A stretch of 64,000 nucleotides of DNA from Tribonema minus (lineage: Eukaryota > Sar > Xanthophyceae > Tribonematales > Tribonemataceae), in assembly GCA_017506865.1 (NCBI GenBank), contig JAFCMP010000556.1:1-64000 (forward strand), read 5' to 3'. Positions 6,194 to 43,080 of the stretch are shown here, piece by piece. Made by a program: the position numbers and the translations under genes. The stretch's first letter is position 1, and each line of letters begins with the position of its first letter. Below the pieces are notes generated by a model. That model was not told the origin of the DNA, ran no database searches, and saw nothing but the letters and a program-made list of their open reading frames with translations.

Positions 6194-6222
6194 AGCTTTG
6201 AAAGGCGACTTTGAGGCGCGAG

Positions 6223-8988: not shown

Positions 8989-9120
8989 CTGTGCACTGTG
9001 TGTTGCCCGCATCCACATAGCCTTCAGAGCAGGGTACGCAGAGTGCTCCATCGCCCCCACCAGAATAGTTGTTGCCAGTGCATTGCTCACACAGACTTCC
9101 GCCATAACCAGCGAGACAAG
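8989..9120 (-). CDS. Exon: Cys-rich repeat 5 (GC-AG intron follows)
   Basis: 132 nt, phase 1-1, encoding a 44-residue repeat with CLAGYGG, CEQCTGNNYSGGG, CVPCSEGY and NTQCTG. The acceptor is ACACAG. The donor reads CACAG|GCAAGTG, the consensus of the rare GC-AG intron class instead of GT. This is the repeat most diverged from the other four and one residue shorter. The spacing resembles ephrin-receptor/TNFR-like GCC2_GCC3 modules of secreted proteins (family resemblance, not a search result). Confidence 0.8.
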
Positions 9121-9210
9121 CTGTGTGGACAAAAGATTAGAGCCATACAAAGATGCAGGGCAGAGCAGAGGCGGTTTAGAGAGGAGGGAAACCGACGTAA
9201 AAAGCACAAC

Positions 9211-9768
9211 TACCGTATATGCCCGAGTAAACACCCCCCCCCTTGCAAACGCCCATGGGCATGCTTGCCAAGGCAAAGTGGGCAACAACGCCCACCCCCC
9301 CCTTGCAAACGCCCCCCTAGCAACCATAATGGCTGCAGGCCGGCACGGGCCTCGAGAAACAGCCGAAAAACGTCGAAATTAGCCGAACTTCAGGCCGAAC
9401 TTGAACTCATATCGTTCTGAGTGCTTCTCTACTTGCCAACGGATGGTCACAAAGGCAACAATGCTCGATTGACAGAAGCTGTCTTAGCTGCAGCAGCTTC
9501 GCCAGCACCGCCATTGCCGTTATGAGAGGCGTCCGCCATCGCTCCCAAATTTTGTGTGCCGCACCTTGCAAAACGCCCCCTCCGGGCCCTAGTAAACGCC
9601 CCGTCCCCCTTGTAAACGCCCCCTCTGCTAGCTGGCAATGCAAAATGGAGCAGCTAAGCCCCCCCCTCCTTTGTACAGCCCCCCCCCCCATGTAAACGCC
9701 CATGGGCGTGCTGTGCAAAGGTCCAGATCCGCACGCCCGGGGGGGCGTTTACTCGGGCATATACAGTA
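9211..9768. mobile_element. TIR element, 558 bp, with C-rich interior (MITE-like)
   Basis: Ends are inverted repeats of 22 bp with one mismatch: 9211-9232 (TACCGTATATGCCCGAGTAA...) and the reverse complement at 9747-9768. The interior holds further inverted copies of AAACGCCCCCC-type motifs, so the element can fold on itself. The flank suggests a TA target, but this is uncertain. No transposase is encoded. It lies in the intron between Cys-rich repeats 4 and 5. Confidence 0.8.
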
Positions 9769-10555
9769 TATCAACCTTTTAAAAGTTATCTGACCTTATA
9801 CTGACACTAGTGAGGAGATTTTAATCTAATATGTTAATTCAATATATGCAACAGGTTTGTGCTGCTCCGGCTGCATATTCAGCATCATGTTGCATCTACA
9901 TGATCGCTTTACGCTGCGTGGATTTCACGCAGACCACGGTGAAAAGTGTCGAATAGGTTCATCATCCTGATGAACGGAATAATTGGTGCAGCGCACACCC
10001 TGGGGCATCAAGCTATAGTGATCCTGCTCATAAAAGCTGAGCTTCATTATCATCATTATAATATGATACAATCGCATGATTGTCAGTGCATGCAAACTTC
10101 AAGCTAGGCCCTACCATGACAGCCAGTCAGAGTCTGCCGATAGCAGCACAAGGGAGTGCATATTGCTATACAGATGGGCGGCTGATCGAAGCTGCAGGCG
10201 TTGTTGTCAATGACTTGGTATTACGTTATAGCTGCTGAAAGCATCAAAGCAAGAACAGCATAGGTATTTGAAAATGCGCATCAGCTTGCCTGTGTTCTCC
10301 CATGTGGGCTAAGCAAATGATAGGTGATAACGGTGCATCAAGCAAGTCTGCAAATAGCATCACCTGTAAAATTACCAGAGCAAGTTTCAGCACAAGGCCA
10401 AGTGCTTACGATGAACCCTGTACTGCCAGGCGCTTCTCTTGTTGAACACAAGAGAGTTGGAAAGTACTGGAAAGCGAACATCATAATGCTGACTAATTGT
10501 GAACTAAGTCTATCAACAAGAGGTTGTCCAGTGAAGCACACTGGATAGCACGCAC
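9769..10555. other. Intron sequence, no gene seen
   Basis: AT-richer sequence between the TIR element and the 10.6 kb exon. No open frame with protein-like composition on either strand. Confidence 0.5.
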
Positions 10556-10690
10556 CTGTCGTGCAGCTGGATCTCATATAGTTAACCTGAAAGCCCCCAC
10601 AGTCCTGACAACTGGCTCCATATCCTCCAGGCGAGCAAGTGTTGTCACCACATGCTGTGCAGCTGCCGCCACCATAGCCAGGTGCACACA
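10556..10690 (-). CDS. Exon: Cys-rich repeat 4
   Basis: 135 nt, phase 1-1, with acceptor CATCAG| and donor ACAG|GTGCGT. It encodes one 45-residue repeat: CAPGYGGGSC, ACGDNTCSPGGYGASCQ, CGGFQVNY, SSCTTG. It has six Cys in the shared positions plus one extra (DNTCSPGG). Confidence 0.88.
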
Positions 10691-12362: not shown

Positions 12363-12497
12363 TGCTGGTGCAGCTGGTTTTGGCATCATTAACTGCAAAC
12401 CCTCTACATGATTGGCAGGATGCTCCATGGTCGCCGGCTGAGTAGGAATTGTTTGTGCAGGCCGCACAGCCGGAGTCGCCATAGCCAGGCCAGCATG
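12363..12497 (-). CDS. Exon: Cys-rich repeat 3
   Basis: 135 nt, phase 1-1, acceptor GCACCAG|, donor AGCA|GTAAGTG. It encodes CWPGYGDSGCAACTNNSYS, AGDHGASCQSC and FAVNDAKTSCTS. It is most similar to the next exon upstream (13.6 kb): both share CWP and VNDAKTSCTS, so the two look like a recent exon duplication. Confidence 0.9.
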
Positions 12498-13578: not shown

Positions 13579-13713
13579 CACTGGTGCAGCTAGTCTTGGC
13601 ATCATTCACCATAAATGGTCCGCACGGCTGGCAGGCCGCTCCGTAACCCCCAGTTGAGAAGTAGTTGCCAGTGCAGGGTGCACAGCCTGTGTCTCCAAAG
13701 CTGGGCCAGCACG
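13579..13713 (-). CDS. Exon: Cys-rich repeat 2
   Basis: 135 nt, phase 1-1, acceptor CGCCAG|, donor AGTG|GTGAGTG. It encodes CWPSFGDTGCAPCTGNYFS, GGYGAACQPCGPF and NDAKTSCTSG. The split codon at the upstream junction (G+CG) gives Ala before the first Cys, as in most of the repeats. Confidence 0.9.
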
Positions 13714-14211: not shown

Positions 14212-14346
14212 CCAAGGAGCAGCCTGTATGTGTGCCATTGACCTGGTAGCCACCACATGTCTGGCACTGAGCGTTCAATCCTCCCGCCGAATACTCATTC
14301 CCAGTGCATGGTGCACAATTCGTGCCGCCATAGCCAGCCTGGCAGG
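14212..14346 (-). CDS. Exon: Cys-rich repeat 1
   Basis: 135 nt, phase 1-1, acceptor CCGACAG|, donor TTGG|GTGAGTG. It encodes CQAGYGGTNCAPCTGNEYS, GGLNAQCQTCGGYQ and THTGCSLG. It is the first of the five repeats and joins in phase to the Pro-Thr exon at 15.8 kb (A+CC = Thr). The Cys pattern C-x8-C-x2-C-x15-C-x2-C-x13-C suggests three disulfides in a secreted module. Confidence 0.9.
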
Positions 14347-15733
14347 CTGTCGGTAACATGCAGCAGCAATTTATTGTCAGCAAGTGCTGGCAGAAGGCCT
14401 ACCCCTAGTAGCGGTAATTTGAATGCATGAGGCCTTCGGGCACATACAGCAGACGATGTCGGACTTGTGTGCAACTCCGCGCGCAAGTGCGCCACATCAT
14501 TGCAACAGCAAAATGCACTGTCCAAAGTGCAAGCTGATCCTGTTGAGCTTGGACTTCTTCTGTAATGTGCACTCAATGATACGAAATCAGTTTCTGAGAA
14601 CGACATCAGGTCATGGTGATGATAATCAGGGTCTTGTAACCAAAGGGCCTCAAGGGAGGCTGCGTGACACTGTGTTGTGTGTGCCTACAGCATGTCATAC
14701 ACAGTTGGTTCATCTGCGCAGCACCCTGAGAGCTTGCACACTGGATGTCCACTGGTCCTGGAGATGCACAGTGTGATGTCGCGTGCACCTAGAGTGCCAG
14801 ATAGTGCACCCAGACCACCCTTCTCCTTCCAACCATGTCATTGAGCCGCCCGACCTCAGTGCTGTTCCAATAGTACATGTTGAATTCCATTTCAGGACTT
14901 TATCCAGCATTTCCTCCAATAAATGTGACAAACGTTCTGAGGCTGTACACATTCATGGCAACATACACGGCAACATAGATTAGTATACTTCGTCTATAAC
15001 ATGTCTGCAAAACGCACAGATCTGCAACGCGCTACGAAGTGCGTGTTGTGCAAACACATGATGCATGCCAAGCACCGAGACCGCACACTGTTGAAAGCTC
15101 ACACTTGTCAGCCAGTGCGGCCGGTGCGCAGAACTTCCAGCGTGCAACTGAAAAGATTGCCAGGCAAAGAACGAGTTATAGTGTTTAAAGTTCACAATCT
15201 TTAGCCAGCAACTGAAAGGCTGGTGCACAGTGCTTTCATTGTGCAACTGAAAAAGACTGCAGTGCTAGACAAAGGAAGCGTCATAGAAACGCTGTGCTTG
15301 TCATAGGGGTGCCTTTCTCCTTGTAGGCTTTCTCTGTATAGGCATCGTCGTATTTCTACCACGGACGTGTTTCCACCGCCTATGTCGAGAAACCAGATGG
15401 GCACTATGAAATGACCTGAGGGGCAGCCACTGTGATGAAGCGGAGCTGTAACCTCAATTTACCTTGTCGCAATTGAGCTTCACGACGCATGAAACTGGCC
15501 CAGTGGCTGTAAACAATTCTCGTTGTGGCCCGCAGTGCTGTGGAAGCAGACATTGCTTGCATGCTGCATACCACCAATTGCCCTGAGCTTCTCGAGCTCA
15601 GCAATCACAATGCCAGCCAGTTCTGCAACCATGGACATGAGCAACATACGCTCTGAAAGCTCAGCAGGGTAGTTGTTCCTGACCGCATCTACACATACAG
15701 ACGATCCCTAACTTTAAGGATTAGGTCACTTAC
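14347..15733. other. Intron, no confirmed gene
   Basis: No supported coding sequence. A Cys-rich stretch around 15460-15570 (minus) was considered and rejected because its phase does not fit. Confidence 0.5.
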
Positions 15734-15839
15734 TAACGACCGGCTTCGCAGTGGGCCCTATGGTGGGTTGCGTGGTGGGGTGAGCAGTTGGTTTTGATGT
15801 TGGTGGCTCCGTCGGTAACGATGTGGGCTCCATCGTTGG
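15734..15839 (-). CDS. Exon: Pro-Thr linker (phase 0>1) before the Cys-rich repeats
   Basis: 106 nt, acceptor TTGCAG|, donor GTTA|GTAAGTG. It encodes PTMEPTSLPTEPPTSKPT-like residues: threonine/proline tetrads typical of extended, probably O-glycosylated spacers. It begins in phase 0, as the upstream Pro-Thr exons end, and finishes in phase 1, as the Cys-rich exons begin, so it converts between the two phase classes. Confidence 0.85.
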
Positions 15840-16843
15840 CTGCAATATCAACAACACACAACAGGAATACAACAGGAATGATCTGGTGGTGATGGACAAG
15901 AGACGGCAAACATTGCGATATATGGCATGTAAAGCGCTATGCATGCAGCCTAATGCCCGCCACAGCACGTTGTACTGGCACGTCTTCAGCAAAGTGTACT
16001 TCACATTCGCTGGAGAGAGGAAATCCTGCACCACAGCATATACGCGCGATGCTCCTATTGAGCTTGTGCACGCTTTCTTTCCCCAGTGGGATGCCTCGAA
16101 CATACACAAACACTCACAAAGCTACCTTCTGATGGTACAGATGGCACTCCGACGAGGCCTCCTCTGCCCGCTGCCCCAGTACGGAATGCTCACGAACTCG
16201 CTTCTTGACGACAGCATATGTGGCGATCGTTGGTGGATGTTGAGCTTTATTGAATGGATTGATTGCTCCCGCCACACCAATGAATGGCCTCATTGCACCA
16301 GCATAGGTGACCGTCATGACAATTCCTGAAGAGCGATCATATAGCCACATTGCTGGGGCAGCATGAATTTCTGCAAGCACCTACATGACTTTTTGCTTTG
16401 CGGAAGGTTTGACTAGCTAAGAGTTGCCCATGCCGCTTATGCTGTTGTGCGTCAGCAGCTGCTAGTCACATCACTCGCAGCAGTAGACAAAACAACTATA
16501 CGCAGGAGAATAACCTGCATGAGCAGCACAAACAGAGCTTTCACTTGAGGGCAGAATACACACCGAGTGACCTGAGACAGCGTTCAAGTGCGCTAAAATT
16601 GTGCCATGATTGGTCACCATGTCCAAACTGAAGAGTTTTCAGCATTTTTGATACAAAATCGGGGCCAAAAACCAGGAATCATCAAGCGGCACACAAGAGG
16701 CGAAGGCGAGCGTGTGGTAGCCATTCACATTCTGCTAGATCACACAAGGCGAAGCTCTCGCGGACACAGCGGCAACACCAGTCAGGTAGCCAGCACTGTC
16801 GCCTGTCTGCCAGCAGTACTCAACTTATTGAAAGTCTTACAAA

Positions 16844-16917
16844 ATGCAGCGAGGAATGCGAGCGGCGAGAGCTGCGGCCAGGGGATCGGGTGCTAGCAGG
16901 GGTCGTGGGGCTGGCAG
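16844..16917 (+). pseudogene. Arg/Gly-rich reading frame interrupted by the copia insertion (5' part)
   Basis: ATG at 16844 opens MQRGMRAARAAARGSGASRG and is cut at 16917 by the LTR. After removal of one GGCAG target copy the frame continues from about 21613 (Ala/Arg/Gly/Ser/Lys-rich) to a stop near 21780, with another frame carrying acidic residues (AQTEAEAEP, VGAFRMMLERHD) up to 21880. It may be the N-terminus of an older element or gene. The function is not recognised. Confidence 0.45.
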
Positions 16918-17331
16918 TGTCGGAAGCGTTGCAGAATCAAGTGAATTGGTGAGAGTGAGGCAACCTTGCTTGGTGCCGAACTCCAGAGAAGCCGAACTCC
17001 ATAGAACCGGCCTGATACAATGGGCCGATGTCCCGAAGGGCCGAGACCTAGCCCAAATGGGCCGAACCCCAATCAACATGTGGCCGATGCCCAACTTCAA
17101 GTTCAACTGTGAAGTTGAAGTAGGAGTGTCAACTTCAACTATGGCAGTATAGTACTGCAGAACAATGCTGTTCTACTGAACGCATAGGAAAGCGCACCCA
17201 GTCATGACTCTCCTGGGAATGGGGGCATTTCACCACTCCTGCGCATACACTACGGATGTCTGCTTCAGGCTGCAAGTCTCGATAGGTGACAAGACCTCTG
17301 AAGGACTGCATCTGAGCACAATATCTCGACA
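16918..17331 (-). repeat. 3' LTR of the copia element (414 bp)
   Basis: It begins TGTCG and ends CGACA (minus orientation). It is preceded on the minus strand by the polypurine tract CTGAGAGGGGG and followed by the target duplicate GGCAG. Nearly identical to 20618-21031. Confidence 0.88.
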
Positions 17332-17382
17332 CCCCCTCTCAGGCCAAACGAGGTCTGATGCTGTTATGTACACCCGATTACC

Positions 17383-20300
17383 TCATGCCTCGACGAAGAT
17401 GACAGAGGTAAGCTCCCGCAGCGTGCTGCTGCCTACGCCCTTGGTCAGGCTGTCCGCCAGCTGCTTCTTGGTGTTGACGTCCTCCAGCTGGATGGTCCGG
17501 GCGGCGATGTGGTCACGAATGTGGTGATACTTGAGGTCGATGTGCTTGGTGCGGCGGTGGTGCATGGGATTGGACGCCAGCTTGATGGCTCCTTGATTGT
17601 CCTCGAAGATGGTGGTCGCCTTGGTCTGAGGTATGCCGAGGTTGCTGAGTAGTTGATGGCTTCATTGCATGCTTCTGTGAGCGCCATGTATTCCGCCTCG
17701 GTTGATGAAAGCGCCACTGTGTCTTGCAGCCTTGAGCACCAAGAAATGGCCGCGCCGCCAAGAGTGAACAGGTAACCTGTGGTGGACCTGCGTGGGTCGA
17801 TGTCTCCAGCGTGGTCAGCGTCGCAGTAGCCGCTGAGGTGGAAGCTGTCGGCTATGGAGAAGTCGTACCGAAGCCGGAACTCTCGTGTGCCGTTGAGGTA
17901 CCTGAAAACGCGCAGGCATGCCTGCCAATGCGCACGCCCAGGGTTGTGCATGAAGCGAGATACCTCGCGCACGGCGTTGCTGATGTCCGGTCTGGTAACC
18001 ACTGCTAAGTAGAGCAGTGATCCGACGGCGCTCCGGCATGGTATTGATGCCATGAATGATGCATCTGTCCATGTAGACGCAGCCATTGTTTTGGAGAGTG
18101 GTCCATCGGCAGAGGGCGTGATGACGGGCTTGCTGCTCCCAAGGCTGAACTTCTCGAGGATGGTCTTGATGTAGGTAGTCTGGTCCATGGTGAGTAGTCG
18201 CTTGGTGCGATCTCGCCAAATGTGGATGCCGAGGAAGTGCTCCAGCTGCCCGAGTTCCTTGACGTTGAAGGTCTGGCTGATGCTGTCCTTGAACGCTTGT
18301 AGTAGACCGCTGCTGTTGGACGCGAGGATGATGTTGTCGACGTATACGACCACAAAGAGGTTGTGGTTCTCCTGAAAGCAGGTGTACAGGCACATGTCCA
18401 CTGATGACCGCTTGAAGCCGAAGTCATGCTCCAGCCACTGGTTGAGGACTGAGTTCCAGTTCTTGGGAGCTTGCTTGAGACCGTATAGGCTGCGCCGAAG
18501 CCGGTAGACAAGTGATGCGCCTGAGGAGAAGGTCTCATGGTAGCCGGGAGGTATAGCGGCGTAGATCTCGTCTTCGACAGGTGCGTTGAGAAAGGCTGTG
18601 TCGACGTCCATTTGCTCCAGCTCCCAGTCGTAGTATGACGCTGTCGCAAGGAGGGTCCTGACCGTAGTGATGGCTGCTACTGGAGCGTAGGTCTCGAAGA
18701 AGTCAATGCCTTCGACCTGCGCGTGGGAGAAGAACCGGAGAAGCCCGCCGCGGTCGCCGGTCCCGCTCTGGGGTGCCGGTGGTGCTCCAGGTTGCGGCAT
18801 AAGTCGCTTATCGCCTTGCGCCTCCTTGCTCCCTCCGATATTGGCACTAGCGTCGCTCGCTTGCGTCTGATGGCTTGTTGCGTCCGAGACGTGTTGTGAA
18901 GACTGCACTGAGAGCGCCCTGAGTGGTTGCCGTGCTAGTTTGAGTTGAGCCCCCTCTGGCTCTAGTGTGCTCGCGCTTCGCTGCCTAGCCGACTTGGTAG
19001 CGGAAATAGTGCGCGGCTCCTTGTATAGCTGGCTTTTTGTTGTGGCTGCCTGGCTGTACGGCTCCGGGATGTGCTGCATAGCCGACTCTGCAGCCTTGAT
19101 AAAGTGCGGCTCCAGCAGTTGCTGCTTACCCGATTCAGCAGCAAGACTGCGTTCCGGCTCTGGACTCCAGAGGTGCACCTCTAGCTTGATGTGATGCCCT
19201 CCTCCTGGCTCCGCCATGCTAGCGAAAGAGCATACCTCCCGCTGCACTCCGATGGACTGGCCGGGTTTGGCGTTTGCCGCCGGCTTGTTGATGGTCGACG
19301 TGCTGTTGGCACGCCGAATAGGCAAGGTCCACAGGCCTCGAGCGTCTCTGTCGAGAGCGAAGCAAGAATTGGCATAAAGTGCCTTTGATCCAGTTTCCTT
19401 GCCGTCGAAGACGAACTTGATGTCGCGGCTGACCGCCTTGGTGACTGAGAGCAGGTTGGCGGTGCCCATAGAGGGAATGATGGCGACGTCGAAGAGCGTG
19501 ACTGCTTGGTCGCCGATGAAGCCGGGAAGATCGCCAATGTGTGTAGCTTGCGCCAGGTTGCCGTCTGCCAATGTTACGGCAGTCTTGAATGGGCGAACGT
19601 TTACCATGCCCTGGGTCGAGCTGGTCATGTGACTGGTGCAGCCAGAGTCGATGATCCACTCCTCGGCTGCTGTAGGGGCTGATGATGAGGCGTTGACCGC
19701 CATGAAGCCCACGTTAGCTGGCGTGTCATCGCCATTGTTGCTCTGGTCGTCGCTCCCGCCTCCGCCGTTGTTGCCCTTTAAGGTGCTACGGCCGCCGTGC
19801 TTCCTCGGGGTCCACCCCGGGGGCTTGCCGTGCAATGCGAAGCACTTGTCGATGGTATGTCCCAGCTTGTTGCAGTGCCCGCATCTTGTCTTACTACCAG
19901 CTGCCGCGGGCCCTCCGCGACCAGCGGGGGCCACTCCGCTAGCGCCACCTGGGCGTTGCGCATGATGAGCGGCAAGAGCGGACTCCGACGGGTCCGCGCT
20001 GGGAGACGTGATGATCTTGCGCCGATAAAACGCCCGCAGTTTGATCCGCGGGTCGCTGAGGCTGAGGTTGTCCAAATCTTGCTCGACGAGGGTGACGAGC
20101 TCAGAGTAGATCATGGGGAGCTTGACGACGATGTCGGTGACGAAGTCAGAGTCGCTGATGTTGACGCCGTTGTCCTTGAGTTGCCGACGGATGTAGTCGA
20201 GCTGCATGATGAAGTCGTCCGGATCTTGGTCCGCTGACATGACGGTAGTTGAAAATAATCTGCGCAGCTCCGTCTTGCGCGCAGATGACTTCACCTCATA

Positions 20301-20618
20301 TTTGTCGTTGAGCGCTGCCCACGCTCGCGCCGGTCGGTCGTTGCCTGACGCGGTGCCCTCGACAATGAAGAAGGCCAGGTCCGAGCAGCACAGTAGTAAT
20401 TCCGCGTACGCCTGCGTCTCCAGCCTGTCGTGCTTGGCCTTGGCGCCTGCTGCCAGGTTCTCCCGCTGCGACGGCTCCATGGGACTGGTGAGGGCCTCAT
20501 AGGTCCCTACTAACGCAGCCCTCGACGCAAATTTCGCGGACCACTGTCTCCAGTGCTCTTGCTTGCCGCTGAAGGGCGGCAGCTTGAGTGCATCCTTGCT
20601 CTCTATCGGTGTGACCAT
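17383..20618 (-). pseudogene. Copia Gag-Pro-RT-RNase H polyprotein lacking integrase, frameshifted in RNase H
   Basis: The long frame runs from ATG at 20618 to a stop at 17445. Gag starts with LPPFSGKQEHWRQWSAKF. The CCHC knuckle CGHCNKLGHTIDKC is at ~res 245-258 and the aspartic protease WIIDSGCTSH at ~320. RT begins at FFETYAPV (~637) with LYGLKQAP and a YVDN box (~760). RNase H has YCDADHAGD and [10 protein letters not shown]. Between protease and RT only ~300 low-complexity residues remain: the HHCC and DDE integrase core is absent although the frame is kept. Near 17650 a frameshift diverts the C-terminus; the conserved [13 protein letters not shown] end lies in another frame ending at 17383. 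The second Asp of the usual YVDD is Asn, expected to impair polymerisation. The start codon overlaps the last base of the LTR, leaving no leader. Confidence 0.88.
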
Positions 20619-21031
20619 GTCGGAAGCGTTGCAGAATCAAGTGAATTGGTGAGAGTGAGGCAACCTTGCTTGGTGCCGAACTCCAGAGAAGCCGAACTCC
20701 ATAGAACCGGCCTGATACAATGGGCCGATGTCCCGAAGGGCCGAGACCTAGCCCAAATGGGCCGAACCCCAATCAACATGTGGCCGATGCCCAACTTCAA
20801 GTTCAACTGTGAAGTTGAAGTAGGAGTGTCAACTTCAACTATGGCAGTATAGTACTGCAGAACAATGCTGTTCTACTGAACGCATAGGAAAGCGCACCCA
20901 GTCATGACTCTCCTGGGAATGGGGGCATTTCACCACTCTTGCGCATACACTACGGATGTCTGCTTCAGGCTGCAAGTCTCGATAGGTGACAAGACCTCTG
21001 AAGGACTGCATCTGAGCACAATATCTCGACA
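20618..21031 (-). repeat. Central full-length LTR of the copia element (414 bp)
   Basis: Acts as 5' LTR for the main internal region and as 3' LTR for the deleted upstream unit. The sequence immediately downstream (TGGTCACACC) begins with TGG like a plant-type initiator-Met primer site but does not otherwise match it. Confidence 0.85.
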
Positions 21032-21527
21032 CCCCCTCTCAGGCCAAACGAGGTCTGATGCTGTTATGTACACCCGATTACCTCATGCCTCGACGAAGAT
21101 GACAGAGGTAAGCTCCCGCAGCGTGCTGCTGCCTACGCCCTTGGTCAGGCTGTCCGCCAGCTGCTTCTTGGTGTTGACGTCCTCCAGCTGGATGGTCCGG
21201 GCGGCGATGTGGTCACGAATGTGGTGATACTTGAGGTCGATGTGCTTGGTGCGGCGGTGGTGCATGGGATTGGACGCCAGCTTGATGGCTCCTTGATTGT
21301 CCTCGAAGATGGTGGTCGCCTTGGTCTGAGGTATGCCGAGGTTGCTGAGTAGTTGATGGCTTCATTGCATGCTTCTGTGAGCGCCATGTATTCCGCCTCG
21401 GTTGATGAAAGCGCCACTGTGTCTTGCAGCCTTGAGCACCAAGAAATGGCCGCGCCGCCAAGAGTGAACAGGTAACCTGTGGTGGACCTGCGTGGGTCGA
21501 TGTCTCCAGCGTGGTCAGCGTCGCAGT
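21032..21527 (-). pseudogene. Duplicated 3' end of copia internal region (RNase H fragment)
   Basis: About 496 bp essentially identical to 17332-17827, including the same frameshift and the [13 protein letters not shown] segment. It is joined at 21527/21528 directly to an LTR end, so most of the first internal unit (gag to RT) has been deleted. Confidence 0.88.
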
Positions 21528-21607
21528 ACGGATGTCTGCTTCAGGCTGCAAGTCTCGATAGGTGACAAGACCTCTGAAGGACTGCATCTGAGCACAATAT
21601 CTCGACA
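21528..21607 (-). repeat. Truncated outer 5' LTR (80 bp)
   Basis: Only the first 80 bases of the LTR (TGTCGAGATATT end) are present. It abuts the GGCAG target duplication at 21608, which shows it is the true outer edge of the insertion. Confidence 0.85.
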
Positions 21608-30359: not shown

Positions 30360-30718
30360 CAGGCAGAGTCCTAGAACAGACTCGGACTCAGCCGAAAACA
30401 GCTCAGAAACTGCAGCCATTACCATCAAGAACACATCCTGACGCAGATATTCACATTGCAGCTGTTGTGCACTGTGCTCCGAGTCGTTCGTTGCTGTCTT
30501 GGATCAGGCAAGTGGGCACAATTCAGACACATACTGAGATCCTTGCATGAGCGCACCATGGTTAAACATTTGAGGTGCTTTGGTCCTTCCCCCACAATCA
30601 TGCATGTGCTTTCCTGTTGCAGCCTACGGCGAAGCCCACTGCTACGCCGACCGCTGAGCCAACAGCCAAGCCCACCGCCGAGCCCACTGCTGAGCCAACT
30701 GCTCAGCCCACTGCTAAG
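30360..30718 (+). repeat. Segmental duplication copy B carrying a plus-strand Pro-Thr exon
   Basis: Second copy of the 28180-28545 segment. Small indels in the intronic part show some age, while the exon differs by a single silent-looking change. Confidence 0.85.
30623..30718 (+). CDS. Exon: plus-strand Pro-Thr linker (96 nt, 0>0)
   Basis: Same 32-residue PTAK/PTAE array and splice sites as 28450-28545 (acceptor TGTTGCAG|, donor AAG|GTATCA). The exon is more conserved than its surrounding intron, which suggests either constraint or repeat homogenisation. Confidence 0.6.
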
Positions 30719-31359
30719 GTATCATTGTGTGCTCACATTTTATATAACACGAGCCCCTGGGCTGGAGCTGTGCATTTTATAGTTATTTATAACACAAACG
30801 ATCGGGCCCAGCTGTGCTGTGCTCCTTGGAATGAAAGGCCACCTTACTCGACTTTCGCTTTGCATTTGGCGTGCAAGCTTGCCCCTTGTGGAGCAGCAAA
30901 CAAGTTTTTCACATGTATTCTCCAGGTTTTCATGATCGCATCGCCCGCTCAAGCTTGAGCCTTTCGTCGGCTGCGACAGCGCATCAGAAGGTGCAGAAAC
31001 CATCCTATTCCGGAGCCGCTTTCATAAAGAATGAATGCATCACGTCCCACGTCGGTTGTTGAATGGATGTGCTTTAGGATCAACCTGCTACCTCAGACTT
31101 CAAAAGCGGCCTGTGTATTCAGCGATATCACAGGGTCGCGCATCTATAAGCGGAGACTGTACAATTGCGTGGATGGACCGCTCGCATGCCATTGCTATCC
31201 AAAAGCATATGTCAATCAACAGCAGCATCAGTAGGTCGACTCACAATTGTCAACCATGTATATATCTCGACCAACAACGCCTGTCATGCATCTTTCTTCA
31301 ATGTTCATGAACTTCAAGCACGAAAAAAATTAACTCGCTGAACGGTCTGCTGGCATTTA

Positions 31360-31522
31360 ACTGGTGGGGCCGGTCATCAGCTACGGTATCGGTAGGTGTT
31401 TGACGGGTTGCCTTGCATCTCCAGTGACGCGTACGGGTTAACGAGCGGCGGCCAGTCACCGGTTCAAACTGGCACGAAAATTGATACGGGTACCGGTGCA
31501 ACCAGTCAACGGGGCATCTCTG
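31360..31522. mobile_element. Right end of a hAT-like element (truncated or diverged relative)
   Basis: An ACCGGT/GGTACC/CCAGT-rich stretch ends at 31522 with CAACGGGGCATCTCTG, resembling the CGCGCCATCTCTG end of the 872-bp elements. It is followed by GTCACAAT, which sits uninterrupted at about 33833-33840 in the second tandem unit, so this end marks an insertion or duplication boundary. The left end was not found. Confidence 0.55.
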
Positions 31523-31723
31523 GTCACAATGCTTTGGCTGGTCAGGAAACGCTTAGTGAGTCTTGCTGTGCGGCCTGACATTCATGTATCACGCGGCAGT
31601 GCAGCCGTGTGCGCCCCCGGGCTGACGGTTTTGAACATCCTGCTCTGATGCCAGGCCCCATCAGCAGGTACTGAATGACTGCTGTCATTGATTTAAACTG
31701 CTGCCACTGTGGTGCCGCCACAG

Positions 31724-31945
31724 CCGACTGCTCAGCCCACGGCCAAGCCGACAGCTGAGCCCACTGCTGAGCCCACCGCCAAGCCAACTGCGGAGCCCAC
31801 CGCTCAGCCAACTGCTGAGCCTACTGCCAAGCCCACTGCGGAACCGACTGCAGAGCCCACAGCTAAGCCCATGGGCACTGCCAAGCCCACCACTGAACCC
31901 ACCGCCGAGCCCACTGCCAAGCCGACCGCAGAGCCGACAGCGGAG
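31724..31945 (+). CDS. Exon: plus-strand Pro-Thr linker (222 nt, 0>0)
   Basis: Acceptor GCCGCCACAG|, donor GCGGAG|GTAAGC. 74 residues of PTAQPTAKPTAEPTAEPTAK type with one PMGTAKPTTEPT interruption. The 12-bp coding unit makes it a coding minisatellite. Confidence 0.68.
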
Positions 31946-32093
31946 GTAAGCAGTGCGTCTGGTAACTGTAACATGTAGTGACCGTTCCCGCATGAGCTTT
32001 GACAGGATGAAGTGATGAGTTTGTCTCATCAGCCGGAGTGCTTGTTCAGCGCTTGCAGTGGCGTCAGCAGTGGCGTCAGCAATGCCTGGCTGC

Positions 32094-32965
32094 CAGACAT
32101 GGCGCGTAGTGCCATATCTGCACCGGTCGCGCGTAGAGCGCGAAATTTTTTGACAAGTACGCGTACGAGTGTTCCAAAACTTGTAGCTGTGGCTACCCGT
32201 ACAAGTTTAACTGGTGAGCTGTGCCAACCGGTACCCGTATACTTGTTGCACCGGTTATTACTGGTTCAACAAGTTTTCACCAGCTGCACCAGTTATTTGG
32301 AAGGCCCACCAGTATTCATGTCATGCAAACGTCATAGTATGCTCATGTACTCACTCATAACTGTCATGAATGTGAAGGCTGCAAGAGGTGCGCACGCACT
32401 TGCACGCAAATGTCACAAAAGTGTAATTTGCATGATATGCATGGCGTGCGGCACACACGTCACAGCAGCAGCATGCCAGCACAGCTTGTCCTCTACAAAT
32501 GACTCATGAAGTGAGCGCATCAAGCTGAAAGCCGCGTGCTGTGCAGCACTGCGTGCTGTCGGCGTCGGCACCTGTGTTCTGCAGGCAGCCGAGCTTGCGT
32601 GCGTTGCTACGCATAGTTTCACGAACTCTAACCTTGCCCTGCTCAATGCTAGAAGGCCTTTTCGAGCTGCTCAATCGTAAGGAAGTGGCAAACATCGCTC
32701 GCCATCTGTCGCGACTCGCTACCAACCATACAACCATGTTCCCCTCGGCAAAACTACCGAGCACCGACAGAATAAAGCGGAACGGGCATTTAACTTGTAC
32801 CGCAAGTTATCAGCTGCGGGACCGATGGGTGTTTACGCGTTGCCACCCACGACAAGTTACACGTACCGGTTAACGCGTGCGGCGCAGCGGGCCACCGGTT
32901 ACGGGTTAAAACCGGTACAAAAACTTGTACTCGTACCGGTGCAACAAGTTAACGCGCCATCTCTG
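32094..32965 (+). mobile_element. Non-autonomous hAT-like element, 872 bp, 8-bp TSD
   Basis: Flanked by a perfect 8-bp duplication CTGGCTGC (32086-32093 and 32966-32973). Termini CAGACATGGCGCGT and (reverse complement) CAGAGATGGCGCGT form imperfect TIRs starting CAG, as in the hAT superfamily. The related intron at 33447-33454 has a single CTGGCTGC and no insert: an empty site that proves the boundaries. The interior is rich in ACCGGT, GTACAAGT and GGTACCCGTA words, as subterminal binding sites often are. No transposase frame. Confidence 0.9.
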
Positions 32966-33126
32966 CTGGCTGCTATTCAGGAAATTCTCTCGTCGCTTTG
33001 CAAGTTCTATGACACCAAAGCTTTCGAGGAGGAGAGAACATCCTGCTCTGATGCCAGGCCCCATCAGCAGGTACTGAATGACTGCTGTCATTGATTTAAA
33101 CTGCTGCCACTGTGGTGCCGCCACAG

Positions 33127-33318
33127 CCGACTGCTCAGCCCACGGCCAGGCCGACAGCTGAGCCCACTGCTGAGCCCACCGCCAAGCCAACTGCGGAGCC
33201 CACCGCTCAGCCAACTGCTGAGCCTACTGTCAAGCCCACTGCGGAACCGACTGCAGAGCCCACAGCTGAGCCCACTGCCAAGCCCACTGCCAAGCCCACT
33301 GCAGAGCCAACAGCGGAG
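33127..33318 (+). CDS. Exon: plus-strand Pro-Thr linker (192 nt, 0>0)
   Basis: Acceptor CCACAG|, donor GCGGAG|GTAGGC. 64 residues of PTAE/PTAK/PTAQ/PTVK tetrads. Its inverted twin is 63150-63341, also 192 nt. Confidence 0.68.
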
Positions 33319-34030
33319 GTAGGCAGTGCGTCTGGTAACTGTACATGTAGTGACCGTTCCCACATGAGCTTTGACAGGATGAAGTGATGTGTTTGTCTCC
33401 ATCAATCGGAGTGCTTGGTCAGCGCTTGCAGTGGCGTCAGCAAGGCCTGGCTGCTATTCAGCAAGTTCTCTTGTCAGCTTGCAAGTTCTCTGACACCAAG
33501 GCTCTCGAGGAGAGAAGTAGCTGAGCTGTGGCTGTGTCAGGTCATGGTGACTTGCACGATGCAGGCGCAGGCACCCCGGGGCTGCAGAGAGCTGCCGCTG
33601 GACCACGTAGTACAGTACAGTACCTGGGGCACTGTCATCACTAGTGCACTGTTGGCGGTGGTGCAGCCAGGCACCTATGCACGCTACCAAATTCTCAAAG
33701 GCTTACGCCAAAGTCACAGACTAGTGGTACACTGACATTATGCACCTTGAAGTTTGTAGAGGGCAAGTACTTCTATATAGCTGCTGGCTGCCCGTGGGCT
33801 TGCGTCGTGTGAATCAGACTGAACCGAGTGTCACAATGCTTTGGCTGGTCAGGAAACGCTTAGTGAGTCTTGCTGTGAGGCCTGACATTCATGTATCACG
33901 CGGCAGTGCAGCCGTGTGCGCCCCCGGGCCGACGGTTTTGAACATCCTGCTCTGATGCCAGGCCCCATCAGCAGGTACTGAATGACTGCTGTCATTGATT
34001 TAAACTGCTGCCACTGTGGTGCCGCCAAAG

Positions 34031-34252
34031 CCGACTGCTCAGCCCACGGCCAGGCCGACAGCTGAGCCCACTGCTGAGCCCACCGCCAAGCCAACTGCGG
34101 AGCCCACCGCTCAGCCAACTGCTGAGCCTACTGCCAAGCCCACTGCGGAACCGACTGCAGAGGCCACAGCTAAGCCCATGGGCACTGCCAAGCCCACCAC
34201 TGAACCCACCGCCGAGCCCACTGCCAAGCCGACCGCAGAGCCGACAGCGGAG
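34031..34252 (+). CDS. Exon: plus-strand Pro-Thr linker (222 nt), acceptor changed to AAG
   Basis: The same 74-residue array as 31724-31945 with donor GAG|GTAAGC, but the acceptor reads GCCAAAG| instead of GCCACAG|. It is still an AG. Inverted twin at 62216-62437. Confidence 0.62.
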
Positions 34253-34387
34253 GTAAGCAGTGCGTCCGGTAACTGTACATGTAGTGACCGTTCCCGCATG
34301 AGCTTTGACAGGGTGAAGTGATGAGTTTGTCTCATCAACCGGAGTGCTTGTTCAGCGCTTGCAGTGGCGTCAGCAATGCCTGGCTGC

Positions 34388-35259
34388 CAGACATGGCGCG
34401 TAGTGCCATCTCTGCACCGGTCGCGCGTAGAGCGCGAAATTTTTTGACAAGTACGCGTACGAGTATTCCAAAACTTGTAGCTGTGGCTACCCGTACAAGT
34501 TTAACTGGTGAGCTGTGCCAACCGGTACCCGTATACTTGTTGCACCGGTTATTACTGGTTCAACAAGTTTTCACCAGCTGCACCAGTTATTTGGAAGGCC
34601 CACCAGTATTCATGTCATGCAAACGTCATAGTATGCTCATGTACTCACTCATAACTGTCATGAATGTGAAGGCTGCAAGAGGTGCGCACGCATTTGCACG
34701 CAAATGTCACAAAAGTGTAATTTGCATGATATGCATGGCGTGCGGCACACACGTCACAGCAGCAGCATGCCAGCACAGCTTGTCCTCTACAAATGACTCA
34801 TGAAGTGAACGCATCAAGCCGAAAGCCGCGTGCTGTGCAGCACTGCGTGCTGTCGACGTCGGCACCTGTGTTCTGCAGGCAGCCGAGCTTGCGTGCGTTG
34901 CTACGCATAGTTTCACGAACTCTAACCTTGCCCTGCTCAATGCTAGAAGGCCTTTTCGAGCTGCTCAATCGTAAGGAAGTGGCAAAGATCGCTCGCCATC
35001 TGTCGCGACTCGCTACCAACCATACAACCATGTTCCCCTCGGCAAAACTACCGAGCACCGACAGAATAAAGCGGAACGGGCATTTAACTTGTACCGCAAG
35101 TTATCAGCTGCGGGACCGATGGGTGTTTACGCGTTGCCACCCACGACAAGTTACACGTACCGGTTAACGCGTGCGGCGCAGCGGGCCACCGGTTACGGGT
35201 TAAAACCGGTACAAAAACTTGTACTCGTACCGGTGCAACAAGTTAACGCGCCATCTCTG
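34388..35259 (+). mobile_element. Non-autonomous hAT-like element, second copy, 872 bp
   Basis: Identical length and ends to 32094-32965, with CTGGCTGC duplicates at 34380-34387 and 35260-35267. It was copied as part of the block duplication rather than by an independent jump, because it sits at the homologous position. Confidence 0.9.
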
Positions 35260-35420
35260 CTGGCTGCTATTCAGGAAATTCTCTCGTCGCTTTGCAAGTT
35301 CTATGACACCAAAGCTTTCGAGGAGGAGAGAACATCCTGCTCTGATGCCAGGCCCCATCAGCAGGTACTGAATGACTGCTGTCATTGATTTAAACTGCTG
35401 CCACTGTGGTGCCGCCACAG

Positions 35421-35563
35421 CCGACTGCTCAGCCCACGGCCAGGCCGACAGCTGAGCCCACTGCTGAGCCCACCGCCAAGCCAACTGCGGAGCCCACCGC
35501 TCAGCCAACTGCTGAGCCTACTGTCAAGCCCACTGCGGAACCGACTGCAGAGCCCACAGCTGA
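35421..35563 (+). pseudogene. Truncated plus-strand Pro-Thr exon at duplication edge
   Basis: Acceptor and the first ~48 residues match 33127-33318. Homology stops after ...CCCACAGCTGAG at 35563, where unrelated sequence (CAAGCTGCAGAACAATG) begins and no donor follows. This is the breakpoint of the duplicated block. Confidence 0.75.
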
Positions 35564-36072
35564 GCAAGCTGCAGAACAATGCGGCACACTTTGCTGAGAT
35601 GCTGAGGTATCCACTTTGCTCAATAGGGTTGCTTATTAGCGTCATACGCCGAAGTCCGCCCTCAAAAATGCCTTGAGCTTGTGTGCAATTCCTATGGGAA
35701 GCATACTGTGAGCAGCAAAAACAGCTACAGCTTCAGCCCTATAGTATATTTGCTTTATTCAATTGAATGCGGCTTACGCAGCAGGAAGGATGATAATTAC
35801 GCATGCATTCAAGAAGTCCCAGATTTTTACGGACTGTGACGGTGGTTATCATACCAATGCGTATACTAGAACGCACATTTAGCATGCACTCACGGCAGGC
35901 GAGATAACGGAAGCAGTGCTTGCTGACTGTCGCAGTTTTGCCTTCGAATTTAAGCTGGGCAGGGCTTCTTCCAGATCGCACGCTCACTGACGCAGGAAGT
36001 TGTGAGGCGGTCTCATAAAGTGGTGGGTTGTCCTCTTGTATGCAATCAATCAAAGCAGACAATAACACTCAC
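35564..36072. other. Intron sequence beyond the duplication breakpoint
   Basis: No gene recognised in this stretch. Confidence 0.4.
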
Positions 36073-36135
36073 CACATGTACCAAAGGCGGTGCACCCTGA
36101 CCCTTGGCCAGCACAGTCCGCATCCACAAAGCACT
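36073..36135 (-). CDS. Exon: small disulfide module 2 (63 nt, 1>1)
   Basis: Acceptor CTGCAG|, donor TGTG|GTGAGTG. It encodes (E)CFVDADCAGQGSGCTAF with a final GTCG. The pattern C-x5-C-x6-C-x5-C resembles the C..D.DC.G..C...G.C mini-repeats common in secreted microbial-eukaryote proteins. Confidence 0.8.
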
Positions 36136-37241: not shown

Positions 37242-37310
37242 CTGAACAAATGCGGTACTCCAGGCTGCACTGATCGGCAGCACCAGAGCAGGAAGCCCCA
37301 TCTCCGCACT
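37242..37310 (-). CDS. Exon: small disulfide module 1 (69 nt, 1>1)
   Basis: Acceptor TTGCAG|, donor TCAG|GTACGT. It encodes (E)CGDGASCSGAADQCSL and EYRICS: four Cys like the next exon. The Glu preceding the first Cys is created by the split codon G+AG at both modules, which supports the model and suggests the two exons arose by duplication. Confidence 0.8.
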
Positions 37311-38203
37311 CTGCAAGCAAGACAAAGCAATGTGGGGTTATGGTATAGCACTGCGGTCCACCAAGTGGAGCAATGTCATGCAGCAATTAGTTCGTTCCCG
37401 GCACTTGGTCTATTCATGAAGCTACGCTTGTGAGAGCCCTATCAGTCACAGTGCAGGCAATGGTATGTGCACCGATGAAGATGCTCAACCTTGAGTCACA
37501 CAAAATCAAAGGACAGCATGCAGCTGTGTGGCGCGCCATGAGTGAGGTTGGTGCGAAAAACTTTGTGGACAGCTAGAAATGGGCAGTGTCAGTGACACTT
37601 GGGGTGGTGGTCAGGCCGTGTCACGCTGTGAAATGCAAGTAGAGGGTAGGCGTGGCGCAACTGCCGCATGCATGCTTGCCGCTATGCACCTTGTGAGGTT
37701 CCTCACAGCACTTTGAAGAAACCAGCATCACACAGCAGGCAGGGACCTACCTGCTGAGCACGCAGGCGTCACCATTTGTAGTTGTCGGCCGCCAAGACCT
37801 GTTTTGAGCGAGCGTAAAGCAGCAATGTCAATCTATTAGGTGGCAACGGCTGCAGGATTTACTGCTGGTCTGCCTCAGGCTAAATTCATGTCGCTCAACA
37901 AATTTCAAAGGGGCATTGCACGGTTTAAGCACTGGCAACGTTGTGAGACTTGTGGTCACACTGCATGGTGGGGCAGCAGCTTGTCAAGCGTTGAGGTCTA
38001 TGCAGCTGCCGTGTGCGAACAAGGCTACAGGTAAACTTGCTATGACACCATGACATTGTGCAGCTCATGACCAACTAATTGAGCCCCCTCTGGTAGCAGG
38101 CGCTGCTTTACGCAGAGAGCACAATCACAACACCAAGAAGCAAGCACGTGGCATCAGCCTGAATCACACATATTGCAAGTGACCGTGCTGCATACCCACA
38201 TAC
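37311..38203. other. Intron, no gene seen
   Basis: No exon or mobile element recognised. Confidence 0.4.
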
Positions 38204-38594
38204 CTGTGCGAGGCGGTAGCTGACCCAGGAGGTTCAGCATAGACTTAAGGTAGAACAAGGCCCAAGGGCAATCCTGGGCGCGCGGCAACAGGTTCTTGAT
38301 GTCGCTGACGATTTCTTGTCGAGGAGTGTCCTTCTCCACCTCGACGCGCGTCGCTTGTCTCCACAGATCAAATTTGGCCCCCTCCTGCCGCTGAAAGCCA
38401 CTTTCTCGAAAGTTGATGCAGATGTGAGTGTTGACGCCCTCGCTGGGATAGAAGTTGATGTGTAGTTGGATCTCACTGTCGTAGTCTATCCGGTAGCGTG
38501 GCGCAGCATCACAGTTCCTCCAGGTTGAAGTGTCTGATGTCTTGCATGTCCCCCTCCCAATGACATAGCCTAAGTTGGTGAGAGGACCCGGCCG
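38204..38594 (-). CDS. Exon: orphan domain C (391 nt, 0>1)
   Basis: Donor CACAG|GTATGTG. The chosen acceptor is CATACAG| at 38595-38597, which gives the required phase 0; CTTAG| at 38575 (phase 1) is the alternative. About 130 residues, including NLGYVIGRGTCKTSDTS, RYRIDYDSEIQLHINFYP, THICINFRESGF and DCPWALFYLKSMLNLLG. Four Cys and a beta-rich, mixed-charge composition suggest a folded extracellular domain. I do not recognise the family. Confidence 0.75.
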
Positions 38595-39378: not shown

Positions 39379-39675
39379 GCGTGCGTAGGGGTCCACTCTT
39401 TTGTTGGGGTCCCGGGGATCAGGAACCCATAAGTCAGCCCTGGAACCTATGCTGAATTGTAGTCCCCACCAAGGCCCGTATCCTCCGGCATCTGAACTGA
39501 AGTTTGCTTTGCCCATTGTCCTCAGCTGGTTCGCCATGTAGTTGTGGGCCTCCACCAACGTGCTGAAACACTGGTGGCACTTGTCAGGATATCCTGCGCT
39601 GACGCAAGCTGCTGAACTGGCTTGCAGACGGCGCCTAGCGGGGAGTTCCTCGCCGGTTTCGTAGGGTGCGCAGCA
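39379..39675 (-). CDS. Exon: orphan domain B (297 nt, 0>0)
   Basis: Acceptor GCCTTGCAG|, donor CGC|GTGAGTC. 99 residues starting CCAPYETGEELPARRRLQAS, then DKCHQCFSTLVEAHNYMAN, GGYGPWWGLQFSIGSRADLW and DPRDPNKRVDPYAR. Five Cys. The RRRLQ string resembles the basic-Leu motifs often seen in secreted algal proteins. No family recognised. It joins in phase to the Pro-Thr micro-exon before it and to domain C after it. Confidence 0.82.
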
Positions 39676-40748: not shown

Positions 40749-40774
40749 CTGCGCTGTTGGAGCGGCAGTGGGGT
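40749..40774 (-). CDS. Micro-exon: Pro-Thr linker (26 nt, 1>0)
   Basis: Acceptor CTGCGCAG|, donor CGCAG|GTGAGTT. Encodes (D)PTAAPTAQ. The split codon G+AC with the preceding exon gives Asp. Same length and phases as 45678-45703. Confidence 0.7.
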
Positions 40775-41090: not shown

Positions 41091-41222
41091 GTGAGAAGCA
41101 GCATCTGTTATGATGCATGTCCAACTAGTCGAAGGCATACTACATGGTGTGCTCACAGAGATGCTGCTATGATGCATGTCCCAACTATTAGTAGGCAAAC
41201 TACATGGTGTACTCACAGCGGT
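41091..41222. repeat. ~63-bp imperfect tandem duplication
   Basis: ATGATGCATGTCC-AACTA...GGCA-ACTACATGGTGTGCTCACAG occurs twice in a row, in an intron next to the 41.2 kb micro-exon. Confidence 0.7.
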
Positions 41223-41232
41223 GAATGCGTAC

Positions 41233-41271
41233 CTGAAGTGGGAGACGAAGTAGGCTGGCTGGTGGGAGGAC
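41233..41271 (-). CDS. Micro-exon: Pro-Thr linker (39 nt, 1>1)
   Basis: Acceptor AAATGCAG|, donor TTCAG|GTACGC. Encodes (G)PPTSQPTSSPTS. It connects the orphan domain A exon (ends phase 1) to the 40.7 kb micro-exon (starts phase 1). Confidence 0.75.
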
Positions 41272-42389
41272 CTGCATTTCACGACAGGCAAATCAAGAGC
41301 ACCGTGAAACATGCCACTCTTGACTGTCAAAGCAGCAATTGTTCCCAACAAGCATGCGTTGACACAATACCGTAAGCAATCATGCACTGTGTGCAGCGGC
41401 CATCCAATGCCTGAGATGCCATGCAAGTGCTACATGACATATAACTACCTTGGTGCGTTGACGGCTGCCGATGCCCCTGATGCAGACAGTGCAGGATTAC
41501 TCTTGCAAACTCACTTAGTCACCCTAGCCACAGCGGATTCGCTTGTTTTGGTGCTGCTGACAGCAGCGAAGCCAGCGCACTCGTCAGCGGCATGGTTGTA
41601 GATTCTAAGAGCTCAAATGCTTCATGGGTGTTAGGATGATGGGGCTTCTCTTCAACGCTCCAGACTGGCAACGCTATGTCATCGTGGCTGCACTCCAGCC
41701 TTGTGGAAGGGCTGGCAAATTTATGGCGAGCTTGGGGACAGCAGCCCAGAAGGCCCCGGCTTGGTCCCACATGTAGGTGTACACATGTATGTGTACACAT
41801 CTCTATAAATGACAGCAGGTGCTCGTGTATGCTCATAGCGAACAACTGCGTGCACGAGCTGAACGGGGAGCATAGTCTCATATGTCTTATATTTGAATGT
41901 GGCTTTGAAGTGGGAGTTTCGCACCTAGGCAGAAGCTGAAAGATTGCATCACCTCAGGCACATGGCATAATGACTAGGAAAGTGCAGAAGTTATGCCCAA
42001 CACGGAATCCAACCGCACTGTTCTCAAAGCTTGTCCCCACATTGAATGCCAAATTGGCTCGCAGTGTCTGCTTGGTAGACCTTCAAGTTGGTTTGTTCAC
42101 GACGTGTTACTAGTCCAATGAGCCAAAGACAGGCGTTGACCCTGTGCAAAGAGGGGTGCACTCGGCAAGTACCGTTCGCGCAGGCCCCAAGCCCCAGACA
42201 GCTTGGCTTTCTGACATCACTACAACGGCTAAGTACTGTTTATCATCAGCAGCTTCAAGTCTTCAGCAAAGCGCCAAGGCAACTTTTGTTTGTGTGTGAC
42301 GACTTGTTGTGTAATACTCAACGCAGTACTGTAGGGTCTTACAATTGCTTGATCTAGCGGATCACCTGCTTCAAGAAGATGCCTCTTAC
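41272..42389. other. Intron, no gene seen
   Basis: No supported exon. Its first 24 bases (42389-42366, minus) stay open, so a later in-phase donor at the exon A edge is possible. Confidence 0.4.
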
Positions 42390-43080
42390 CTGAGGGACAT
42401 GCTCCAAGCTGCGGTATTGGCTGGTCCTGATTGCCGCACTGTTTCTGAGCTTTTGCCTCTGACATACCAGGATAGCATAACGTAAGTATCAGCGGCCCGT
42501 CGTCCGGATTGTTGGCGGCCGTCTTCACAAAGATGGTCCAAACGTCCTTAGCGCCGTATATACCAGTTTTTTCGGTGGCGTCTCTCTTGAAGTAGAGCGT
42601 GTACGAGTCCGGATACTTTGAGTTGGAATTGTACTTGCTCTTCCACACTTTAGGATTAGCGCGCAGCTCCGCGAGCGATGCCGCGCAGCACTCCAGGAGC
42701 TGATTTGCGGTCGTAATGGTTGGAAAATACACCCAGAAGAGTTCATCCGGCGTCATTGGTTGGCCATTTGGCTTTTTTATCTCACTCCAAAACTTTGGGT
42801 CCCGTTTATACCAGTGGCGCACAAGTATGTGTCCCACGTGAAGGGTAATGGAGGTAGACTGCTGCTTCACGGCCGCGCACTGCGAGGCCTTGACCGCAAT
42901 CTCAGCACCCGTTGTGATAGCTTCGATGGTGTCGAGAACGTTTTGGTCAAGCGGAAGATTCAGCATGTCGCCCTTGCAGTCGTTTTCTAGGCGTCGACCT
43001 CCCAGAGGCGCATCCACTGCGCCAACCTCCTCCAGGAATGCCCACTCGGAGTCCTCCAGTGGGTCGGTGGCATCGCAGGC
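42390..43080 (-). CDS. Exon: orphan domain A (691 nt, 0>1)
   Basis: Acceptor TGCTCCTCAG|, donor CCCTCAG|GTAAGA. 230 residues starting ACDATDPLEDSEWAFLEE, then LGGRRLENDC, a helical stretch (LDTIEAITTGAEIAVKASQ), LHVGHILVRHWYKRDPKFW, PDELFWVYFPTITTANQLL, YTLYFKRD, KDVWTIFVKTAANN and GPLILTLCYPGMSEAKAQK. Eight Cys, alternating helix- and strand-like segments and no transmembrane segment. I do not recognise the family. An alternative donor 24 nt later (GCAG|GTGATC) is in the same phase and would add GKRHLLEA. Confidence 0.85.

Follow-up and report, generated by a model that had tools for sequence, protein, structure and literature searches.

An open-ended chain of orphan-domain, proline-threonine and cysteine-rich exons, probably part of one large gene for a secreted or cell-surface mosaic protein

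The mastigoneme protein MST1 of Chlamydomonas contains immunoglobulin (Ig)-like domains, a glycosylated poly(hydroxyproline) helix and a cysteine (Cys)-rich domain with 26 disulfides, which belongs to the growth-factor-receptor family and mediates dimerisation (PMC11015965). Patthy (PMC8001218) states that every domain type employed in the exon shuffling of animals proved to be of class 1-1, and raises the question of why this process should be confined to Metazoa. Here we describe a chain of minus-strand exons running from position 43080 to 8989 of the first 64 kilobases (kb; hereafter the window) of contig C553 (569,972 nucleotides, nt), which belongs to an assembly of 158.18 Mb in 554 contigs. 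A profile search of this genome returned 92 exon matches to the chlorophyll a/b-binding family; the source is therefore a photosynthetic eukaryote, and probably an alga. Judged by its exon structure the chain likely represents one gene, and we read it as an open-ended part of a large nuclear gene for a secreted or cell-surface mosaic protein, a reading to which we assign a probability of roughly 0.58.

Exon limits were fixed from the sequence as a flanking AG acceptor and a GT donor (GC once, at exon R5), and exon calls and phases rest on these splice signals, not on transcripts. Seventeen exons, all flanked by such dinucleotides, join to 2665 nt (888 codons) free of stops, and the phases agree at 16 of 16 junctions. 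This bears out the claim of an earlier note on this DNA that at least 15 exons fit together in phase between the same two positions. The chain opens with exon A (42390-43080; 691 nt, phase 0 in and 1 out, written 0-1 hereafter), an orphan domain with eight Cys that lies in an open reading frame (ORF) and has the splice sites cag before it and gtaag after it. Two proline-threonine (Pro-Thr) exons follow: 41233-41271 (39 nt, 1-1, PPTSQPTSSPTS), whose counterpart on contig C106 is a 1-1 Pro-Thr exon after the relative of A described below, and 40749-40774 (26 nt, 1-0), which is very short and weak when taken alone. Exons B (39379-39675; 297 nt, 0-0) and C (38204-38594; 391 nt, 0-1) encode further orphan domains, and after them come a small exon (37751-37798; 48 nt, 1-1, LGGRQLQMVTPACSA) and two disulfide modules with four Cys each, M1 (37242-37310; 69 nt, 1-1) and M2 (36073-36135; 63 nt, 1-1). 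Three Pro-Thr exons, PT25.6 (25415-25572; 158 nt, 1-0, an adaptor), PT25.2 (25133-25210; 78 nt, 0-0) and the very short PT23.7 (23644-23670; 27 nt, 0-0), connect M2, which ends in phase 1, to the Pro-Thr exon PT15.8 (15734-15839; 106 nt, 0-1), which begins in phase 0. The known part of the chain closes with five Cys-rich repeats of one exon each: R1 (14212-14346), R2 (13579-13713), R3 (12363-12497) and R4 (10556-10690), all 135 nt and 1-1, and R5 (8989-9120; 132 nt), which enters in phase 1, leaves in phase 1 at a GC-type donor and is also present on contig C480. Exons A to M2 (35.6-43.4 kb) and PT15.8 to R1 all lie on one strand.

In its plan, the predicted protein resembles the MST1/MST2 system (PDB 8tx1; PMC11015965): globular N-terminal domains (in MST1), a Cys-rich region and a Pro-rich stretch would be combined in one exported algal protein. 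It differs from MST1 in that the N-terminal domains of the window have no Ig match in Pfam, and in that its Pro stretches take the form of Pro-Thr repeats, which are distributed over several exons and precede the Cys repeats; as far as the chain is known, no Pro-Thr segment lies C-terminal to those repeats. A PDB search with B and C joined gave chance-level hits, all antibody or nanobody chains (best expectation value, E, 0.06), which neither show nor exclude an Ig-like fold. By analogy, we think that the protein may follow an MST1-like plan of globular heads, Cys-rich rods and Pro-rich spacers, although the tests for membership by sequence failed. The likeness to metazoan class 1-1 modules (PMC8001218) lies in the symmetric 1-1 phases, the one-module-per-exon organisation, the extracellular Cys-rich type and the occurrence at several loci. 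In contrast to those modules, the exons of the window lie in a photosynthetic genome and are mixed, by way of adaptor exons, with Pro-Thr modules of other phases. Our literature searches, which covered open-access PMC papers, turned up nothing on such modules in algae.

A genome search with the window Cys repeats led to related repeats on contigs C106, C35, C42 and C522. C35 (876-906 kb) and C42 (66-98 kb) carry arrays of 20 and 17 single-repeat exons, respectively, identified by motif and splice signals. Nearly all of these repeats are flanked by phase-1 splice signals, and the two arrays look like collinear paralogues; they suggest that this genome contains modular genes of great length. The window repeats match those of C35 (R1, for example, at 47%). 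Three joined C35 repeats matched the Pfam laminin-EGF family above its cut-off (E 9.9e-9) and Ephrin_rec_like (PF07699; E 6.9e-6, 26.2 bits against a cut-off of 23.1), and fell just under the cut-off of the ELAPOR1 TNFR-like model (E 1.7e-7); all three are extracellular types. Across the genome, 22 PF07699-like matches are spread over 10 contigs. In the PDB the joined C35 repeats matched, up to E 0.1, nothing but MST1 itself, and that weakly (8tx1_A, E 0.05). The likeness of the window repeats to the Ephrin_rec_like, laminin-EGF and TNFR-like families thus runs through C35, the window repeats themselves being without a Pfam match. The Pro-Thr segments match the PT disordered repeat (PF04886), with E 2.5e-21 for one exon inside the inverted block described below and 4.8e-13 for the joined chain, while PT25.6 alone (24.4 bits) stays under the cut-off of 26.2; this family is a compositional class and is uninformative on function. 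Domains A, B and C have no Pfam match above cut-off, including to Pherophorin (PF12499, DUF3707), which also gave no match genome-wide in a search whose control likewise gave none. Elsewhere in the genome there is no convincing second copy of exon B, and none at all of exon C; a candidate relative of B on C99 (E 0.25) showed no resemblance on reading. The region 35.6-43.4 kb has no second full copy elsewhere in the genome, nor has 14400-16623 among the 40 of 105 candidates scored.

We reject pure chance as the source of the chain on the basis of a module scan together with the paralogous locus on C106. The scan collected phase-1 exons with at least four Cys without using the coordinates of the model, its thresholds having been chosen when the modules were already known. 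It returned eight exons on the minus strand of the window, six of which are M1, M2 and R1-R4, and one on the plus strand, compared with a mean of 0.75 and a maximum of three in 40 shuffles. Given this excess, the modules are not chance products. The two remaining minus-strand exons (29095-28973 and 10540-10376) were left out of the chain.

How much the agreement of phases can tell depends on the modules. One motif recovered 47 Cys-rich repeats at five loci (missing one repeat on C106), and in 44 of them the nearest upstream AG has phase 1 and precedes the first Cys codon by two bases (C106 2/2, C35 18/20, C42 16/17, C522 3/3, window 5/5). For 41 of the 47 the best GT donor likewise has phase 1, under a rule that reads GT only and is blind to the GC donor of R5. 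The window repeats are accordingly of class 1-1, by the acceptor in five of five and by the donor in four of five under the GT rule, the fifth through its GC donor. Because the phase of these repeats is fixed, their mutual junctions had to agree. The Pro-Thr exons vary. In the two arms of the inverted block, the 13 complete ones that could be read on the strand carrying the long Pro-Thr runs are all 0-0, a count in which interrupted runs are taken as one exon and most members are copies of one another. Of the 12 Pro-Thr exons with fixed sites in the chain, upstream of it and on C106, four are 0-0, three 1-0, two 0-1 and three 1-1, the last including the Pro-Thr/EGF-like exon of C106. Agreement among sister modules therefore tells little; the informative part is that the 0-1 and 1-0 adaptor exons sit where the phase changes. 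Given how often each phase occurs here, two exon ends paired at random would agree with a probability of 0.57. Random orders of the 17 exons were fully compatible in 40 of 1,000,000 trials, and in a fraction of 0.0023 once sister modules were collapsed to ten classes. Since the choice of exons was not blind, both values overstate the evidence. The earlier note's statement that agreement throughout is unlikely by chance thus holds only in part, and the argument from phase is weaker than the note took it to be.

A second locus supports the arrangement. At C106:148890-149478, upstream of the C106 Cys repeats, lies A', a relative of domain A with 34% identity over the alignment (pairwise BLAST E 8e-7); the local score of 80 (z 10.7) was never reached in 2000 shuffles, of which the highest scored 56. 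Both domains have eight Cys with similar spacing, seven of them aligned, and their exon limits are alike: a start in phase 0, Cys as the second codon and an end in phase 1. On this shared Cys pattern and these limits, the domain-A family has two members in the genome, on C553 and C106. A hit on C112 (E 0.96) showed no resemblance on reading and was rejected; a further weak hit lies on C2, and no relative was found in viral or prokaryotic collections. The C106 chain spans 12 kb on one strand and joins to a single open frame. Its seven exons, separated by introns of 747-2952 nt, are a Pro-Thr exon (0-0), A' (0-1), a second Pro-Thr exon (1-1), three Cys repeats (all 1-1) and a Pro-Thr/EGF-like exon (1-1). 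Further EGF-like exons follow by reading, one of them also found by the module scan, which returned five exons on C106; two of the five (153323-153418 and 159912-160031) were not used in the chain. Also left out were a candidate exon near 150.68 kb (1-0 by reading), which misfits the chain, and a 17-residue B-like match at C106:151234, which contains a stop. From this organisation it is very likely that A and the Cys-rich repeats share one gene on C106, which supports, without proving, the same for the window; the evidence comes from a paralogue within the same genome, neither an orthologue nor a transcript. By eye, a motif of the rough form R-x-L-(Q/E), with a Cys a few residues on, recurs close to where A, A', B and the small 37.8-kb exon begin, and also in a C106 candidate exon (window ~43000, 39640 and 37780; C106 ~149 and 153.4 kb); it may mark a common domain start or a site of processing.

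Several observations weigh against a single gene for an exported protein. No transcript, signal peptide or stop was found for the chain, and no certain start (no signal-peptide predictor was run). The joined repeats R1-R5 matched no Pfam family at E up to 5, falling short of the PF07699 cut-off, and they do not match MST1, their only PDB match up to E 10 being a CotH protein (E 0.28). Genome-wide, the A-A' match has E 1.16, which is not significant and ranks below the unrelated C112 hit; we accept the relation because the shared exon limits and Cys pattern carry this weak match. Shuffled orders of the seven C106 exons are fully compatible in a fraction of 0.024. The earlier note had looked to relatives for a link between domains A-C and the Cys-rich repeats: A' is so linked, in phase, but no recognisable relative of B or C occurs on C106. 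Its claim that no phase conflict exists holds at all 16 junctions, although B joins C in phase only through the weak acceptor at 38594, and a better, pyrimidine-rich acceptor 25 nt further on (38569) is in phase 1 and conflicts with B.

The main weakness of the single-gene model is that its bridging exons PT25.6, PT25.2 and PT23.7 all lie inside a duplicated arm. Window positions 21524-35565 (~14 kb) are an inverted copy of contig positions 80826-63197, 99.0-99.5% identical, the arms being ~28 kb apart. Each arm holds Pro-Thr exons in both orientations, and the far arm contains an extra 3.6 kb including a dispersed repeat. The right edge of the near arm (35565) breaks a plus-strand Pro-Thr exon in mid-repeat, whereas the far copy continues to its donor; we take the near arm to be the one that was inserted, which suggests that its exons need not belong to the gene. 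When the bridging exons are left out, 12 of 13 junctions agree and M2 conflicts with PT15.8. The inverted block that the earlier note placed in the introns is thus present, but with twice the stated 7 kb and with exons of the chain inside it, which rules it out as mere intron filler.

These points feed the alternative that survives best, although we still hold it unlikely: two adjacent genes of one kind. The first would hold A, B, C, M1 and M2 (together with the Pro-Thr exons upstream of 43 kb); the second would start in or near the inverted block and run on through PT15.8 into R1-R5, and the phases would agree because those of the modules are fixed. The acceptor phase common to 44 of the 47 Cys repeats and the chance agreement per junction would then account for much of the apparent fit, and the conflict between the flanks without the duplicated exons, like the inserted look of the near arm, points the same way. 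The 10.5-kb intron far exceeds all others except the 7.8-kb intron with the copia element, and an in-frame ATG upstream of PT25.6 in its open frame (ORF 25247-25657) makes a separate start there possible. Against two genes stands C106, where A, Pro-Thr exons and Cys repeats share one frame over 12 kb; moreover, reading by eye revealed no clear start exon with a signal peptide on the minus strand between 25.6 and 28.4 kb (no predictor was used).

A decaying gene or pseudogene is improbable. Under this explanation the exons would still look intact while the transcription unit had been broken by the copia element, the inverted duplication and other repeats. The copia-type element (16918-21528, minus strand, in the intron before PT15.8) is young by its long terminal repeats (LTRs), which differ at 1 of 911 positions, and it has gag, Pol_BBD and RVT_2 matches, in keeping with the earlier note's assignment; no integrase family was found at E 0.01 in the Pfam search. 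An 84-nt LTR fragment is repeated at the edge of the right LTR, and the left edge of the near arm touches the element. This young insertion speaks for decay, as do the inverted block, two dispersed-repeat copies upstream of A and the unusual GC donor at R5; yet all 17 exons are open and carry splice-site dinucleotides.

A flip of the segment 35.6-60.9 kb, through misassembly or a real inversion, so that the contig order is not the true or only one and A to M2 join the far-arm Pro-Thr exons and sequence beyond 80.8 kb while R1-R5 belong to another transcript, is quite improbable: the inverted arms that flank the segment would favour it, as would the far-arm copy of PT25.2 (contig 73551-73628, plus strand) and, by alignment, of PT25.6 and PT23.7, since with a PT25.6 copy in the far arm M2 joins PT25.6 in phase in either orientation, but no copies of the five Cys repeats were found on C553 beyond the window at E 0.01, and arms less than 100% identical could have been placed by sufficiently long reads.

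Returning to the single-gene reading, the chain is open at both ends. Position 43080 directly follows a splice acceptor AG, 8989 directly precedes the GC-type donor, and no stop has been reached; neither limit is an evident gene end, and past R5 the gene either goes on or has been cut. Beyond its acceptor the frame of A stays open (ORF 42229-43119) and holds two in-frame ATGs, 20-30 nt upstream of 43080, which make an unspliced start there possible; by reading, A' on C106 has an acceptor as in A and no in-frame ATG before it. Three upstream minus-strand candidates for Pro-Thr exons are phase-compatible with the chain: 45678-45703 (26 nt, 1-0), the shortest, which could be a chance match, 53676-53832 (157 nt, 0-1) and 54137-54214 (78 nt, 0-0). 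Further minus-strand Pro-Thr runs lie at 60.8-63.4 kb.

Other repeats surround these features. Window positions 1-6274, 43408-44245 and 49533-51555 are dispersed repeats with long open frames, copies or parts of which also occur on C106 and in the far arm; one open minus-strand frame, ~2090 codons long, extends past the start of the contig, where guanine plus cytosine make up 62-67% of the sequence. Naming the repeats at 1-6.3, 43.4-44.3 and 49.5-51.5 kb long interspersed nuclear elements ('LINE') is unsupported, and Pfam gave no match in the three of their frames that were scanned (two at 1-6.3 kb, one at 49.6-51.6 kb). A short dispersed repeat at 16624-16913 has at least 40 further diverged genome matches. 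There are also a minisatellite with an 18-nt unit at 5814-6011 and, at 44642-44871, a perfect tandem duplication of 115 nt. Contig C480 (12,511 nt) matches window positions 1-10443 at 99.9% identity and is a redundant contig or a second haplotype.

The earlier note's observation is thus confirmed in part, and its interpretation as a secreted or surface protein, which is reasonable from the composition of the modules, is supported in part. In the proposed gene, the orphan Cys-containing domains A, B and C, the small disulfide modules, the Pro-Thr stalks and the Cys-rich repeats would be spliced into one mRNA, and what points to export of the product is only its Cys-rich and Pro-Thr content. The Pro-Thr segments may act as extended spacers, probably O-glycosylated by analogy with MST1, and the Cys-rich repeats as rigid rods that mediate contacts, as in that filament protein. 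Adaptor exons (0-1 and 1-0) would connect the class 1-1 Cys modules to the Pro-Thr modules, of which many are 0-0, and this arrangement would allow the gene to expand as exons are duplicated and modules exchanged. Both the copia element and the 14-kb inverted block would have entered the middle of the gene later.

On this reading, the gene would encode a further example of the large surface or matrix proteins of algae, its N-terminal domains being absent from Pfam. The broader point would be the presence of class 1-1 extracellular-type modules in a photosynthetic eukaryote. We propose, tentatively and as a possibility short of an even chance, that such a eukaryote arrived on its own at a set of giant extracellular mosaic proteins, assembled from symmetric class 1-1 Cys-rich exon modules, a hallmark regarded in the literature consulted as peculiar to animals, and from 0-0 Pro-Thr stalks connected by dedicated 0-1 and 1-0 adaptors, with A as a new capping family of two members. 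If this is true, the arrays of one-module, 1-1 extracellular-type exons at several loci would make the restriction of exon shuffling to Metazoa, as posed by Patthy (PMC8001218), directly testable outside animals.

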